Assembly: GCA_022566535.1 (NCBI GenBank)
Contig: JADFIR010000012.1
Span: 18,059 to 82,058 of the forward strand
Direction of reading: 5' to 3'
DNA: 64,000 nucleotides
Source of the DNA: Planctomycetota bacterium
GTDB taxonomy: Bacteria > Planctomycetota > Phycisphaerae > Phycisphaerales > SM1A02
Under the pieces are notes generated by a model. It was not told the DNA's origin, did not search any database, and worked only from the letters and a program-made list of their open reading frames with translations. Numbering within the stretch: position 1 is the first letter of the stretch; the number at the start of each line of letters is the position of its first letter. The position numbers were made by a program, and so were the translations under genes. Shown in pieces: positions 3,884 to 11,536 of the stretch.

Positions 3884-3982
3884 CGTCGGCCCGATTGTAG
3901 GTTACCGCCGCTTCCCGTTTGGGTTGCAAGGAGCGTACCCTGGCCGCAGCGGATGCATATCCGCCGAAACCCTTCCGCTGTC

Positions 3983-4060
3983 TCACAACGTCGTGTTCTG
4001 CTGCTTGGTGTCGGTGCCGGCCGGAATGTGGCAGAGAATCCGGCGCGTGATCTTGACGCT
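3983..4060 (-). pseudogene. Remnant of acetyl-CoA synthetase C-terminus
   Basis: Reverse strand reads SVKITRRILCHIPAGTDTKQQNTTL-stop; compare intact Acs end [25 protein letters not shown]. Confidence 0.7.
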
Positions 4061-4082
4061 ACACGTCCCAAGGGAGCACTGT

Positions 4083-4325
4083 TCAAGCTGCAACGACTGG
4101 AATCGTCCGAACCTGAGAAGCTTCTTGGGGATTCTTTGCGGCGCGCTCGGCACGCTTTACAACCTCGGCGGGGAAATAACGGTGGCCGCAGCGATCGCAC
4201 CTGCCAATGGTCGCGCCATCGATCAGCACCATCCTGCCACACACCTTGATCGGTTCATCTCTAGCCACAATGGGCTGGACCGTCCCGGAGCAGAAATCGC
4301 AACAATGTGGCTTGTACTTGCTCAT
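4083..4325 (-). CDS. YgiT-type zinc finger protein
   Basis: 80 aa; CDFCSGTVQP...CDRCGHRYFPAEVVKR two-CxxC layout. Confidence 0.75.
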   Translation of the reverse strand: MSKYKPHCCDFCSGTVQPIVARDEPIKVCGRMVLIDGATIGRCDRCGHRYFPAEVVKRAERAAKNPQEASQVRTIPVVAA

Positions 4326-4452
4326 TACTCAGATTCATCATAGCTATCCCCGGCGAGGAGCGTGGGTCGCGCTCGTCGATCACAGCCCATCCCACCACGG
4401 CGGTGGGCTGTCTCGATTTCCTTGATGCCTTGGCGCCTCGATGCCTTCCCCG

Positions 4453-6486
4453 TCACCCTTCTTCGCTCCCGCGCAGGCGGGCGAGGACGGAGAGATCTTC
4501 CAGCGTGGTGGTGTCCTGTTTCGTATCGGTGCCGGCGGCGATGTCGCGCAAAAGCCTGCGCATGATTTTGCCCGAGCGCGTCTTGGGTAGGGCATCGGTG
4601 AAGCGGATCAGGTCCGGCCGAGCAATCGCGCCGATTTCCTTGCCCACATGATGGAAAAGCTCATCGCGCAGCGCCGGGCTGGGACTGTGGCTCTGGTCAA
4701 GTGTAACAAACGCAGCGATGGCGGTGCCCTTGATCTCGTGGGGCATGCCGACCACCGCGGCCTCCACCACCGCCGGGTGGCTGACCAGAGCCGACTCAAT
4801 CTCCATCGTGCCGAGGCGATGGCCGGCCACGTTGATCACATCATCGACCCGGCCCATGATCCAGAAGTAGCCGCGCTCATCACGCCGAGCCCCGTCGCCG
4901 GTCAAGTAGGCGCCGGGAATCCGCGAAAAATACGTGTCGATGAACCGCTGGCGGTCGCCGTAGATTCCGCGGAGCATGGCCGGCCAGGGTTTGCGAATGA
5001 CCAGGAGCCCGCCGACGTTGGCCGGCTGCTCTTCGCCCTGTTCATTGACCACCGCAGCGTCGATACCAAAGAACGGAAGCGTGCAACTCCCGGGGACGGC
5101 CGGCGTCGCACCGGGCATCGGCATGATCAACTGCCCGCCGGTTTCCGTCTGCCACCACGTATCGACGATCGGGCAGTGTTCGGAGCCGATGACGCGGCGG
5201 TACCACATCCACGCTTCGGGGTTGATCGGCTCACCCACCGTGCCGAGCAGTTTCAGGCTGGATAGATCGTGCTTGCGAGGGTGCTCATCGCCCCATTTCA
5301 TAAAGGCGCGAATCGCCGTCGGAGCAGTGTAGAACTGCGTGACGTTGTGCCGCTCGACGATATCCCAGAAGCGGTCCTCGGCTGGAAAGTTCGGCGCACC
5401 TTCATACATGAAGCTCGGCACGCGGGTCGGCAGGATGCCATAGACGATGTAGCTGTGCCCGGTAACCCACCCGATGTCAGCGGTGCACCAGTAGACTTGC
5501 CCACGGTCTGGGACGAGGTTGAACACATATTTGCTCGTGAGGTAGGTGTAAACCATGTACCCGCCGGTGGTGTGCACGATGCCCTTGGGCTTGCCGGTCG
5601 AGCCGGAGGTGTAGAGCAAGAAGAGCATGTCCTCGCTGTCCATCGCTTCGCAGGGGCAGTCATCGGACGCCTCGGCCGTTAGCTCGTGCCACCAATGGTC
5701 GCGCCCCTCCGTCCAGGCGATGTCGTTTCCACACCGCTTCAACACGATGACGGTCTCGACAAGATTGGTCATGCCGGCCGCGGCATCGACGTTGGCTTTG
5801 AGCGGCACGATCTTGCCTCGCCGCCAGCCGCCATCGGCCGTGACGATGACCCGGCTCTTGGCGTCCTGAACCCGGTCAACAATTGCCTGGCTGGAGAACC
5901 CGCCGAAGATCACCGAATGAACGGCCCCGATGCGGGCACAGGCGAGCATGGCGATCGCTAACTGGGGCACCATGCCCATGTACAACGTCACCACATCGCC
6001 CTTCCGCACGCCGAGCTTCTTGAGCACGTTCGCAAACCTGCTCACCTCGCGCAGCAGGTCGTTGTAGGTGAGCCTGCGAATCTCAGGGAAGGCTTGAGGC
6101 TTGTCCGCTGGCGGCCCAGAGGCTTGGGGGGCAGAGGTGGGTTCACCCTCCCAGATGATCGCCACCTGGTCGCCGAAGCCGTTGTTGACCTGCCGATCAA
6201 CACAGTTGTGGCAGATATTCGTCTTCCCGCCGAGAAACCATTTCGCATCCGGCTCCTTCCATTGGAGCACCTTGGTCCACTTCTCGAACCAGTCAAGCTC
6301 CTGGGCAAACTCGGCCCAGAAGCCTTGCGGGTCCTTGATCGAGCGGGCGTACATCTCGCGATATTGCTGCATCGAGGAGATATACGCCCCGCCGATGGAT
6401 TCGCTGAACCCCGCCGGCGGCTCGAACACCCGCTCCTCGTGAAGGACAGACTCGATACTGCTCGTGTCTCCAATCCTCTCGGACAT
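4453..6486 (-). CDS. acs: Acetyl-CoA synthetase
   Basis: [92 protein letters not shown]; start placed at [10 protein letters not shown]. Confidence 0.96.
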
Positions 6487-6608
6487 GGCGAGACCTCTCC
6501 AAGCGTAAGGAAAACGATCACTGTAACGGATCCGCAACGCCGACCAAAAGCAAATCCGCCGATTCCGGAGCCCCATCTCAGACTCAGGACGAGCGAGAAC
6601 CGCACCGG

Positions 6609-7154
6609 TCACAGCGCGATGGTCGCAAGGTCCCCAGGTGGTATCATGCTCGACCAATCGGGTGACGCCCGGGCAACATCCCAGCGACCGACACGCATCA
6701 CGTCGTTGCCAAAATCTAACACATCAATCCGCCCGTAGGTCGTCAGAAGGCGATGAAGATTTGACGACAGGCCTTTCGATGACAACAAATACGCCCCTCT
6801 TGGCCGACAGACACGACAATACCCCAGGAGTTGACCAACATCGACGAGCGAGATGGGCTTTGCTTTCAGCTCAACGAAGACGAGTGTGGTCTGCCGCCTC
6901 TGCTGTACCGCAGCGACAACATCGACTCTTACTTCCCAGGCGCTCGATTCTAGAAAACTCGACGCGAGCCCGGCGTCGTTCATGGCGTACCGAAGTTGTC
7001 TCCGATCAGTCTTGCGAAGTATCGTTATTGTCGCACGAGGGTGCTTGTGGCGAAGAAAGTCAGCGAGCCATTCGCGGCAATCACGGACGAGACGAGTCGC
7101 CTTTGGCAGGAGAACCTCGGGGGCTTGGGCCTGTCGCGCGACCAAGAGTTGCAC
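6609..7154 (-). CDS. PD-(D/E)XK-like putative nuclease (paralog A of tandem pair)
   Basis: 181 aa; [27 protein letters not shown] fits a D-x(n)-ExK core; aligns along its length with the 7194-7685 product. Confidence 0.6.
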
Positions 7155-7193
7155 GGTACGGTCTCCTTTCGAGTAAGACGAACCGCCTCGGCT

Positions 7194-7685
7194 TTAGAGC
7201 AAGATGGGTTCCGCATTCGCCGAATCCCAGGTACCAACCCGAATATACTGCTCGCCATACCTCAGAATATCCCACCGACCAAAGCGCCGGAGCAGTGTTA
7301 CCAAACTCGCCGACAGTCCATCAGGTGCAAGAAGAAAAGCAAAAGTCGGCCGAATGACTTCACATGAAGCCACCATTTCGCCAACATGTGAAATCCGGAT
7401 CCGATCACTTTTCAACTTGGCGAGGGCGAGGGTTACAGAAGACGCGCACCTGATCAGCACAACGGCGTCCATAGTCACCGACCACGTGGACGATTCTGGC
7501 CAATTGGTCTCAAGCCCGTGACGCGCTACGAGATCACGGAGCATTGAGTTCCGCCCCTCCTCCAAGCATGTCACTTCGGCTTTGGGAAAGCGAGATCGGA
7601 GGTGTTCGGCAAGCCACTGGCGCAGCTGTCGAACATGTCTCTGCTTGCCAGCTCGATTGACATTAGTCTTCGTAGAGGTTGCCAT
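7194..7685 (-). CDS. Degenerate PD-(D/E)XK-like paralog (paralog B)
   Basis: 163 aa; WSVTMDAVVLIRCASSVTLALAKLKSDR aligns to paralog A; shared C-terminal GLS..L..LL...GR.D.L......RVG.WD.A. Confidence 0.6.
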   Translation of the reverse strand: MATSTKTNVNRAGKQRHVRQLRQWLAEHLRSRFPKAEVTCLEEGRNSMLRDLVARHGLETNWPESSTWSVTMDAVVLIRCASSVTLALAKLKSDRIRISHVGEMVASCEVIRPTFAFLLAPDGLSASLVTLLRRFGRWDILRYGEQYIRVGTWDSANAEPILL

Positions 7686-7689
7686 CTCG

Positions 7690-8712
7690 CTACTCCGAAA
7701 AGACAGTTTCGGTGAAAGACTTCATGACGGCAGCGGCCTCTACCACCTTGTCGACTTCGTCAGGCGTCAAAAACACCAGTTTGTCGAGCAATGGCGACCG
7801 CTTCACCCTCAGCCGGTCGAGCATCCTCTCCTGCTGCTCGGGATCGGTAACCACGACCGCCTTTTGCACCACGTTAGCAACCATCTCAAGGCGTTCGATC
7901 GCGTCAGCCATGCTGCCAGATATCTGAACTTCAAAGGGATACTGTAGCTTCCCACCGAAATGGACAAATCGCACCCAGAGACAATCAACTTGACGATTCT
8001 CCCTGAGGCGGCTCGAGGCGGGCAGAATATCATTGACGCTCGCGCGCGGCCGAACCTCGAACTGGAAGAACGCGCCAATGATGCCAAGTTTGTGCTCAAG
8101 ATCATTGTGCGACACCTTGCTCTTTTGGGCAGGAGTGCGCGCTCGGGCTTCTAACTCTGCCCTGCGCTCCCGCGATCCCGCCTGCGACAGGAAGAATCTC
8201 CCCGAAATGAAATCAACGAGCCCAAGTGACCGCAACCAGTCAATTCGGAAGCGCAATTGACTACTCAAATGCTGGGGCCTCCAAGAACGCGCCTCTTTGC
8301 GCCGCGAACGCATGTGCGCACCCCATCCCTCGCGCAACGCATCCCAGGTGGCTGGCTGAATCTGTGCGAGGATAGACAGGATTACATCTACGCCGAAAAA
8401 GGTCCGCGAGAAAACCCGGTAGCACTTCTGCGCGCTGTGGGAGCGGGCGACCTCAGTCCCCCGTTTCGTCAAACGAAAAGCCTTTCCATCGCGCTCTACG
8501 AAACCCGTACCGCGCAATAGAACTGAGTAGACCTTCTTGGAAAAGCTTTCGCTGAGGTCATAGGTGCGCTGCATCCACCCCACTAAATCTGCTGACGCTG
8601 ATTCGTCCGATGAGACGGCTTGCAAGATCGTGACAAGCGTGTCGAACTGGGCCTCGATGGGGCCGGCCATCGGATAGCACAGAAGCTTGCCCTCGGGAGC
8701 TTTCTCGCGCAT
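7690..8712 (-). CDS. Winged-helix protein with C-terminal PD-(D/E)XK-like domain
   Basis: 340 aa; N-terminal wHTH-like segments (LLRGTGFVERDGKAFRLTKRGTEVA), C-terminal RQVDCLWVRF..GGKLQYPFEVQISGSMADAIERL. Confidence 0.55.
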   Translation of the reverse strand: MREKAPEGKLLCYPMAGPIEAQFDTLVTILQAVSSDESASADLVGWMQRTYDLSESFSKKVYSVLLRGTGFVERDGKAFRLTKRGTEVARSHSAQKCYRVFSRTFFGVDVILSILAQIQPATWDALREGWGAHMRSRRKEARSWRPQHLSSQLRFRIDWLRSLGLVDFISGRFFLSQAGSRERRAELEARARTPAQKSKVSHNDLEHKLGIIGAFFQFEVRPRASVNDILPASSRLRENRQVDCLWVRFVHFGGKLQYPFEVQISGSMADAIERLEMVANVVQKAVVVTDPEQQERMLDRLRVKRSPLLDKLVFLTPDEVDKVVEAAAVMKSFTETVFSE

Positions 8713-8726
8713 GCTGTAACTCAGAG

Positions 8727-9032
8727 CTAGGCCGAGGCGGGCAATTCCTCAAATCCTTCAAGCACACCGTGCTGGCGGAAGAACTTTTTCCAGCCACGCC
8801 ACCGAAAGATACCCTTAGCGGCATCGATCTCCGTCTCGATTGCGCCAAAATTATCGAGTTCAAGGGTACAGGGTTGAGCATCGGTTTCATCAATGCGGTC
8901 ACCACGAATGGCCCACTTTGGGAAGAACCACAGATACTCCCTGATGTACACGTGGCCGTTTCGCAGATTCCCACCGGTGATGGGCACCTTGATCGTGGAG
9001 CTGCGCTGCGGTGTCTTTGTCGTTGAACTCAT
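8727..9032 (-). CDS. Small protein with possible B3-like DNA-binding fold
   Basis: GGNLRNGHVYIREYLWFFPKWAI...ETEIDAAKGIFRWRGWKKFFRQHGVLEGFEEL; start at MSSTTK (upstream start at 9089 also possible); 14 bp from next gene. Confidence 0.5.
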   Translation of the reverse strand: MSSTTKTPQRSSTIKVPITGGNLRNGHVYIREYLWFFPKWAIRGDRIDETDAQPCTLELDNFGAIETEIDAAKGIFRWRGWKKFFRQHGVLEGFEELPASA

Positions 9033-9190
9033 GATGCTGTACGTTTGCGCATCGACCGTAACCGTATCGTGATGTGGTAAGACTATCAAACCGACTGCCG
9101 CACATCAACCTGCCAGCTGTTCGACGTCAACTCCATAGTAAACGTGATACCGCCCGGCACCAGGTCGCAACATGCAAATTGGCCACAGCA

Positions 9191-11536
9191 TCAGCGGCGG
9201 CGCTTGCCGCGGCGGGGGTGTTTGGAGGTTTTGCGCTTACCTTTGGCGCGGTCGGGGCGCTGCTTCGACGCAGCTCGCTCAACTTGCTGGGGCAGTTTGG
9301 TGAGTTGCAGGTCGAGGTGCCGGGAGGCCAGATCGACGCGCAGGATCTGGACGGTGACGATGTCGCCGATGCCCAGTGAGGCGCCGCTGCGCTGGGCGAC
9401 GATTCGGCCGGTCCTCTCGTCGGCGGTCCACCGATCGGCACGTCCGGCGGACTGGGGCATGTCCTGCATCCGGACCATCCCCTCGACGAGGAACCGCTCG
9501 ATCGAAACGAACAGCCCATTGCTGGTAATGCCCGTCACGACGCCGGGGAACTCATCGCCGAGGTGATGCTCGGCGAGGAACTGCATCACCAGGAAGTCGC
9601 GCAGCTCGCGTTCCGCCGCGTTGGCTTCGATCTCGGTCTCACTACAGTGCCGGCCAAGCTGGATCAACTGGGCCTCGTCAGCCACGCGATCGTCATCGGC
9701 GAGTCGCTTGCCAAGCTCACCGCGCCTTCGCCCGCCGGGGATGGTTCTCCCGTTGTCGGTCGCGTCCAGATACGCCTCGATGGCGCGATGCAGCGAGAGA
9801 TCGGGATACCGGCGGATGGGGCTGGTGAAGTGGGCGTAGTGGTCTGAGGCCAGCGCAAAGTGGCCGATCATCGCCGGGCTGTACGAAGCCTTGGCGAGTG
9901 TTCGCAGGACGGCGAGATGGATAGCCCGGGCTGCGGGGGTGTCGCGGGTTGCGTCGAGCAGGTGCTGAAGATCGCGTCTCGTCGGCTCATCGGGAAGACC
10001 CAGGCCCGCGCCCCGCGCGTACATGCGCAGCTCCTGGATGTCGCCGGGAACGGGATCAGGGTGGATGCGCCGCAGGATCGGCACATCCAGGGCATCGAAC
10101 GTGCGTGCGACCGCTTCATTCGCCTCCACCATGAACATCTCGATGATTGTGTGGGTGAACGCGCCATCCTCGGGCACCGCGTCGATCACATGCCCGGCCT
10201 CGCCAAAGACCAGCTCCACCTCCGGAAGATCGAGCACGATCATGCCGTCGCTCAACCGACGTTTTCGAAGAATGCGGGCCAGCGTATCACATCGCCGAAG
10301 GCTGTCGATCAACTCATTGCTATAGCGAGGCTCGCCGCGGGTGTGCTTGCGGGCCTGGTCACGCTCACCGTCGATCAAGGCCTGCGCCTCGAGGTAGGTC
10401 AGCCGCTTCCTGGACGTGATGATCGTCCAGGCCAGACGTTGATGCATGACCTTGCCCCGGCCGTCGAAGGTGATGAACACCGACTTGGTGAATCGCCCAA
10501 CACCTTCCTGGAGCGAACACACTCCGTTGGAGAGGGCCTCGGGCAGCATGGGGATGACCAGTCGGGGCAGATAGATGCTGTTGCCGCGCTCCTTCGCTTC
10601 CTCGTCGATGGCAGTACCGGGGCGGACGAAATGCGCCACGTCGGCAATGTGCACGCCGAGCGTCCATTCGTCTTGCTGGGCGTCGTAGGTAATGGAGATC
10701 GCGTCGTCAAAATCATTCGCATCCGGCGGATCAATGGTGAACGTGAACGTGTTAGTGAGGTCTTCGCGTTCGGGCCGCCGGCCGTTCGTCCGGGCGTCGA
10801 AGGCTTGGGCTGCCGATGCGGCCTGATCGATGGCCGATGCGGGAAACTCGGTCCGGAGACCGTGGGCCACGATGACCGCCTCGGTCTCGACGTCAGGCCG
10901 CCCGGCCTCGCCAAGCACCCGGACAATGACGCCTTCAGAGACGTAATGCTCCTGCGGGTAGTGCAGCAGCTCGATCACCACCTTGTCGCCGGCGGTGGCG
11001 TTCTTCGCGTGCGGGTCGCGGATCAACACCGGCTCGTGGAGTGATCGGCCGTCGGGCTCGACGAACCATTGCCCGCCACGGTGAAACAACGCCCCGACGA
11101 AGTGATCTCGTCCTCGCTGGACCACCTCGATGATCTGCCCGATGTAGGGGCTGCGGCCGGAGCGGCTCTTGCCGCGCCAAGCCTGTCGGATCACCTTGGC
11201 CCGCACCCGATCACCAGAGATAGCGTCGCGTGCCCTGCCCGCAGGGATAAAAAGATCGCCATCGCGGTACGAATCGTCGGGAACCACAAATCCGAACCCT
11301 CTGGCGTTGAGGCGGAAGCTACCGATCACTTCGTCCGGATAACTCGGCAGCTGAATGAGCCCATCACGATTGATCTCGATGCGGCGTAGCTCGACGAGCT
11401 GCTCGATCGCCGCCTGGAACGCGGTCTGATCCTGCGGCTGCGTTTGCAAGTCGCGCGCCGTCTGCTTGACCGTGGATGGCCGATAGTTTGAGTGGGCCAG
11501 GTGTTTGAGAATTCGACTAGTGAAGCGCAGTGGCAT
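9191..11536 (-). CDS. rnr: Ribonuclease R
   Basis: 781 aa; TFTIDPPDANDFDDAISI, VHIADVAHFVRPGTAID.EA..RGNSIYLPRLVIPMLPEALSNGVCSL, S1 domain, basic C-term. Confidence 0.96.
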   Translation of the reverse strand: MPLRFTSRILKHLAHSNYRPSTVKQTARDLQTQPQDQTAFQAAIEQLVELRRIEINRDGLIQLPSYPDEVIGSFRLNARGFGFVVPDDSYRDGDLFIPAGRARDAISGDRVRAKVIRQAWRGKSRSGRSPYIGQIIEVVQRGRDHFVGALFHRGGQWFVEPDGRSLHEPVLIRDPHAKNATAGDKVVIELLHYPQEHYVSEGVIVRVLGEAGRPDVETEAVIVAHGLRTEFPASAIDQAASAAQAFDARTNGRRPEREDLTNTFTFTIDPPDANDFDDAISITYDAQQDEWTLGVHIADVAHFVRPGTAIDEEAKERGNSIYLPRLVIPMLPEALSNGVCSLQEGVGRFTKSVFITFDGRGKVMHQRLAWTIITSRKRLTYLEAQALIDGERDQARKHTRGEPRYSNELIDSLRRCDTLARILRKRRLSDGMIVLDLPEVELVFGEAGHVIDAVPEDGAFTHTIIEMFMVEANEAVARTFDALDVPILRRIHPDPVPGDIQELRMYARGAGLGLPDEPTRRDLQHLLDATRDTPAARAIHLAVLRTLAKASYSPAMIGHFALASDHYAHFTSPIRRYPDLSLHRAIEAYLDATDNGRTIPGGRRRGELGKRLADDDRVADEAQLIQLGRHCSETEIEANAAERELRDFLVMQFLAEHHLGDEFPGVVTGITSNGLFVSIERFLVEGMVRMQDMPQSAGRADRWTADERTGRIVAQRSGASLGIGDIVTVQILRVDLASRHLDLQLTKLPQQVERAASKQRPDRAKGKRKTSKHPRRGKRRR

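Follow-up and report, generated by a model that had tools for sequence, protein, structure and literature searches.

The four genes that lie between rnr and acs in the window (the whole 64,000-nucleotide stretch analyzed here) are probably a recombinant, methyltransferase-less mosaic derivative of a restriction-modification (R-M) locus. Their function is most likely either that of a methyltransferase-less restriction-type nuclease set or that of a decaying remnant.

The rnr-acs site in the window and in two congeners

The open reading frames of the four genes, A to D, are all intact and all on the minus strand, with intergenic gaps of exactly 14, 4, and 39 nt, which confirms at exact coordinates the arrangement described in an earlier, sequence-only reading. 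They occupy a variable block (6532..9195, no strand assigned) that is also filled in the congener locus L021 and is flanked upstream by rnr, encoding ribonuclease R (9191..11536, minus strand), and downstream by acs, encoding acetyl-CoA synthetase (4453..6486, minus strand). That reading had also described the DNA as AT-richer than its neighbors, and the per-gene GC of A to D is indeed 0.54-0.57 versus 0.62-0.64 in acs and rnr, GC3 being lower too (0.56-0.67 versus 0.78-0.81). Searches of Pfam, NCBIfam, PADLOC, and PHROGs with A to D gave no significant family for any of the four. When PADLOC was run on the cassette and its relatives, only weak PDC-S02/REase_II matches appeared, each in single members, and no defense model was matched. 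Part of the acs 3' end occurs twice, as a 75-nt direct repeat (3981-4055 and 4496-4570, 72% identity) flanking an 80-aa ORF (4083-4325) whose product resembles YgiT-type zinc-finger, antitoxin-like proteins.

Comparison of the acs-rnr spacing in relatives, as the sequence-only reading had proposed, gave a full cassette in one congener and none in another. At this site, the sister genome G600 (locus L021), whose rnr and acs share 93-94% DNA identity with those of the window, has a single ORF (3980-5254) joining a B3 domain to an N6/N4 methyltransferase, followed by a LAGLIDADG-like gene (LAG) and then D. The same order of B3-methyltransferase, LAG, and D was found in a Myxococcales locus (L022). 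The third congener, G601 (L109), lacks a cassette, and ~246-250 bp of unrelated sequence separates its rnr from its acs. The window rnr is 93-97% identical to that of L021/G600 and 95% identical to that of L109/G601, and its acs is 92.8-94% identical to those of L109 and L021. These arrangements thus represent three alleles of the rnr-acs site in one genus: no cassette, a complete cassette, and a methyltransferase-less mosaic.

Compared to L021, the window has B and C in place of the segment between two joints that holds the methyltransferase and LAG. The left joint lies within A (8745..8766, minus strand): similarity to L021 ends with ...CAGCACGGT (8766), a stretch of 72 nt present in L021 is missing at 8766/8765, the next 14 of 19 nt are similar, and unrelated, putative donor sequence follows. 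The right joint lies within D (6933..6960, minus strand), where the identity of D to L021 steps from 71% (codons 29 to 70) to ~96% at about position 6945. The location of the joints inside A and D indicates that A is in all probability the N-terminal piece of a lost B3-methyltransferase fusion and that D is apparently a chimera with a donor-derived N terminus. The sequence-only reading had seen no methyltransferase; this is correct for the window itself, from which recombination has probably removed the enzyme, and the enzyme is present at the same site in L021. A transposon insertion was rejected, since on inspection the G601 junctions displayed no obvious target-site duplication or end repeats.

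No cognate methyltransferase was seen elsewhere in the window's own genome, which has no homolog of the L021 enzyme above 42% local identity and carries other N6/N4 methyltransferases, none of them close to that of L021. This genome is a draft of 86 contigs that is ~93% complete, and a distant methyltransferase could therefore be missing from the assembly; it and the L021 genome are both apparently metagenome assemblies. Two further loci of the window's genome (L142 and L143) encode ParB-like N-terminal domains fused to N6/N4 methyltransferases of phage type.

Gene D and the methyltransferase-LAG-D cassette

Judged by its modeled fold and its active site, D (6609..7154, minus strand; 181 aa) is a PD-(D/E)XK nuclease subunit and presumably active. 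The AF2 model, built on a 55-sequence alignment (pLDDT 93.3, pTM 0.86), has the PD-(D/E)XK topology, with an alpha-beta core and the D...E-x-K signature on adjacent strands, D78 lying just ahead of strand 79-85 and E95 and K97 at the end of strand 88-97. The active-site residues D78, E95, K97, Q108, and Y112 are all kept in the window, and D66, E83, K85, Q96, and Y100 (L021 numbering) are invariant in 88/88 members of the family. The PDB folds nearest to D belong to restriction enzymes, namely, PaqCI, MspJI, EcoT38I, and BamHI, with modest E values of 0.006-0.06 (best probability, 0.99 at E 6e-3). PDB sequence and profile searches detected no sequence relation of the D family to solved enzymes, and such searches with A, B, and D and with the D and LAG profiles returned nothing useful. 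D is 81-85% identical to its L021 counterpart. A near-invariant N-terminal glutamate (alignment column E19), present in at least 90% of relatives, is replaced by alanine in the window, a loss that could reduce activity.

Homologs of D were found with E values from 1e-10 to 1e-91. Using tblastn, we detected them in two Lactiplantibacillus plasmids (L. plantarum) and two gut phages, while a profile scan of 84,980 genomes with one pattern gave 109 relatives, of which 80 were kept. The D profile recovered four further relatives from viral contigs, where scans with the single D sequence, with A, with B, and with the winged-helix alignment of B found none. Going by record titles, the family spans Bacillota, Bacteroidota, Spirochaetota, Desulfobacterota, Planctomycetota, Myxococcota, Zixibacteria, Saccharibacteria, Chloroflexota, Synergistota, and others. 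Among the fetched relatives with at least 1 kb of sequence upstream of D (n = 80), a LAG gene of ~290 aa lies directly upstream of D in 80/80 and a methyltransferase is also present in 79/80; the LAG and D genes overlap in 77/85. The methyltransferases are either N6_N4 or EcoRI type plus C5, often accompanied by a second N6 methylase. In the plasmid and phage loci, D is the third gene of a cassette, after a methyltransferase and a ~290-aa hypothetical protein, the methyltransferase being an EcoRI-type adenine methylase fused to a C5 methylase. This near-absolute adjacency to LAG and a methyltransferase indicates that D-family proteins supply the nuclease of an R-M architecture. Of that architecture the window holds D and lacks the methyltransferase and the upstream LAG. 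The sequence-only reading had held that homologs scattered without conserved adjacency would speak against a system; D does not show such scattering, while for B and C, with no full-length relatives found, the objection stands.

The methyltransferase-LAG-D cassette is common yet unnamed in Pfam, NCBIfam, and PADLOC, none of which has a curated model of the architecture, and no description was found in the open-access literature searched. It represents a variant within R-M rather than a categorically new system. Cassettes of this kind (L021-L104, L006, L014, L019, and L020) were seen in at least 10 phyla, where they lie on chromosomes and plasmids and in prophages. A Vsr-like repair role for D was rejected, as the methyltransferases found with D include adenine or N4 enzymes in addition to C5 ones. 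MhoVII of Mycoplasma, with its fused methyltransferases, was set aside as a relative, since it has two YhdJ/D12-type methyltransferases and a single AlwI-related nuclease. Some cassettes contain additional genes. An extra gene of ~358 aa lies between the C5 methyltransferase and LAG in L067, L074, L077, L091, L100, and L101, and the only one scanned (L067:3988-5064) has a NOV_C domain. ORFs of 111 to 116 aa (L023, L041, L045, L050, L065, L068, L082, and L090) or 151 aa (L059, L081, L084, L087, L088, and L095) lie between the methyltransferase and LAG. That of L023 is a fragment of a LAG reading frame that has been interrupted, and the recurring ~112- and 151-aa ORFs are possibly control or DNA-binding proteins.

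LAG displays the LAGLIDADG pattern as two motifs, (A/S)YLLGMIxGNGEI and (F/L)LRG(F/I)ADVTGYI, located ~115 residues apart, and shares this two-motif pattern with LAGLIDADG homing endonucleases and their WhiA-like inactive relatives. Unlike in homing endonucleases, both catalytic acids are replaced, by asparagine in 79/85 and by threonine in 78/85 members, and LAG is coupled to methyltransferase and nuclease genes, whereas homing endonucleases are coupled to an intron or intein. The most frequent Pfam match was Hom_end, weak and found in 7/48 (best E, 0.004), and the LAG profile matched nothing in the PDB at E values up to 10. We infer that LAG is a catalytically inert LAGLIDADG-like reader, its LAGLIDADG fold being putative.

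Genes A, B, and C

Gene A (8727..9032, minus strand; 101 aa) aligns with the L021 fusion as a truncated N-terminal B3 part. It is 96% identical in amino acids to the B3 part of the fusion, and a new C terminus, LEGFEELPASA, replaces the lost B3 end. The B3 counterparts match PF02362 at 7e-5 (L021) and 4e-4 (L022), below the curated cutoff, while A itself does not match Pfam B3: the C-terminal ~25 residues that hold the match in L021 are absent, and the barrel is incomplete. The ~101-aa B3-like protein of the sequence-only reading is therefore correct as to the domain of origin. Compared to L021, both A (dN/dS of 0.076 over codons 1 to 89; 7 synonymous versus 2 nonsynonymous changes) and D (dN/dS of 0.095; 19 versus 6 over D 71 to 181) show purifying selection, the two ratios covering the whole divergence and not necessarily the time since the swap. 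EcoRII, BfiI, NgoAVII, and CglI are B3-domain restriction proteins, and A likewise links a DNA-binding domain of the B3 type to restriction; however, the B3 domain of L021 and L022 is fused to a methyltransferase and not to a nuclease, and that of the window is a fragment. A stand-alone B3-like relative of A occurs on a Bradyrhizobium plasmid (L008:5899-6327), within a WYL, helicase, ATPase, and DUF1156 cluster that looks like a large defense system.

Gene B (7690..8712, minus strand; 340 aa) combines a predicted tandem winged helix (residues ~14 to 190) with a PD-(D/E)XK-like pattern (~200 to 340). Two proteins match its N-terminal half: a haloarchaeal one with an HNH domain at its end (L003:4899-5801; Pfam HNH_2, 1e-9) and a planctomycete one with a C terminus that is Mrr-like by motif (L002:1438-2856). 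The motif R(V/I)xWLRSLGLV and other positions are common to residues 14 to 190 of B and these relatives, and residues 14 to 190 thus appear to be a DNA-binding module that is paired with different nuclease domains. In the C-terminal half, E205, D242, and E262-x-Q264 occur in a plausible order, a likeness at the motif level; this half gave no Pfam match (Mrr included), no PDB match, and no detectable homolog, and the planctomycete class and phylum samples contained matches to the N-terminal half of B only. Two further matches to B, with E values of about 0.003-0.006, were disregarded, as they run through stop codons. The AF2 model of B, predicted from the single sequence, was poor (pLDDT 41) and offers no basis for fold claims. 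The sequence-only reading had assigned B a winged helix and a PD-(D/E)XK-like domain; the former holds as a tandem pair, the latter at the motif level, and the best-supported nuclease fold of the block is that of D. Mrr and other type IV enzymes combine a winged helix with PD-(D/E)XK and require no methyltransferase. B resembles them in that B-type tandem winged helices also precede the Mrr-like and the HNH domains of its relatives; it differs in that its C terminus matches no Pfam model, Mrr included, and in that Mrr is a single protein with no partners such as C and D.

Gene C (7194..7685, minus strand; 163 aa) is a D paralog with a degenerate active site, as seen from its alignment to the D family. 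The description of two tandem paralogs is borne out by the alignment of C with D (E 3e-35, 39% identity across 145 aa), and C probably shares the PD-(D/E)XK fold. Its active site keeps the aspartate and has lost the tyrosine, so the D/E/K set is broken; we predict C to be catalytically inert, because the glutamate of E-x-K is lysine and the family glutamine is glutamate. Both C and the donor-derived N terminus of D lack the glutamate found in at least 90% of the D family. No full-length relative of B or C was found in any other genome sampled, and therefore the donor cassette is hypothetical and the nuclease half of B unproven.

Origin and possible function of the mosaic

Most likely, LAG recognizes the DNA site in the parent system and brings D to it for cleavage. 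A related donor cassette with B, C, and a D-like gene may then have recombined into the locus, removing the methyltransferase and LAG. In the window, B would take over the targeting role of LAG through its winged helices, D would be the cutter, and C, being presumably dead, could serve as a structural or regulatory partner. Without a methyltransferase, B, C, and D might act on modified or foreign DNA in a type IV-like manner, as Mrr does, be held inactive, or be decaying. Since a type II nuclease is toxic without its methyltransferase (PMC3488263), the window set should therefore be modification dependent, silent, or decaying. Whether B, C, and D form an active nuclease set is close to an even call, leaning slightly to the negative.

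The closest likeness to a small catalytic subunit with a separate recognition partner is found in BtsI, BsrDI, BspD6I, and BbvCI, heterodimeric type IIT/IIS enzymes with asymmetric sites. Such systems often comprise two methyltransferases and a small catalytic subunit that depends on a larger subunit for recognition (PMC2909958; PMC4081073); BtsIA has no activity by itself and requires BtsIB, where the recognition domain resides (PMC2909958). However, their large subunit is PD-(D/E)XK, whereas the partner of the parent D family is LAGLIDADG-like, and their loci include methyltransferases, whereas the window has none.

Decay is the strongest rival to the mosaic nuclease set, although we regard it as unlikely. 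The R-M locus would have been destroyed by recombination, leaving A, C, and a chimeric D as leftovers of no working system, in line with an A that lacks both its B3 end and its methyltransferase, the lost catalytic residues of C, the lost near-invariant glutamate of D, and a survey that classed 99 of 272 solitary restriction genes as fragments (PMC3488263). B would then have hitchhiked or be a solitary restriction-like gene itself. Against decay, the ORFs of B, C, and D are unbroken, close together, and free of frameshifts, D retains its D/E/K/Q/Y residues, and both D and A are under purifying selection.

It is very improbable that the contig is an assembly chimera joining two loci or strains, with a complete R-M cassette in the real genome. 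The draft is fragmented into 86 contigs, and the joint in D falls within a stretch that shares exact 21- to 27-nt words with L021. Yet the reading frames are open across both joints, the base composition of the swapped segment matches that of A and D, and the flanks show several percent divergence from L021 along their length, so that the contig is not simply an L021-like strain spliced in.

Least probable of all is that A-B-C-D is an independent, complete defense module, a new nuclease system of four genes with no relation to R-M. The tight packing of four foreign genes and their DNA-binding and nuclease features would suit it, but L021 has at the same site a methyltransferase-LAG-D cassette of which both D and A are parts, A is apparently a methyltransferase-fusion fragment, and no second A-B-C-D locus was found in the genus, class, and phylum samples, plasmids, phages, or viral contigs. 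The sequence-only proposal of a new four-gene module is thus unlikely to hold, the block probably deriving from a methyltransferase-containing R-M cassette that is intact in L021. What survives of its restriction or anti-element system is a restriction-type function, DNA-recognition modules with a nuclease fold, and foreign DNA, not a self-standing new module.

Returning to the mosaic derivative, we tentatively suggest, as a possibility that we hold to be on the unlikely side, that the dead LAGLIDADG protein is a dedicated, recombination-exchangeable recognition subunit for a separate PD-(D/E)XK nuclease. The window would then be a natural swap to a winged-helix protein and a pseudo-nuclease in place of both LAG and the methyltransferase, giving a system that is either methylation independent or modification dependent. 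If LAG is such a subunit, a homing-endonuclease fold would have been joined to restriction enzymes as a pure reader, in a new two-subunit design in which targeting and cutting are separable. The three alleles in one genus represent a natural test of a restriction nuclease surviving the loss of its methyltransferase.
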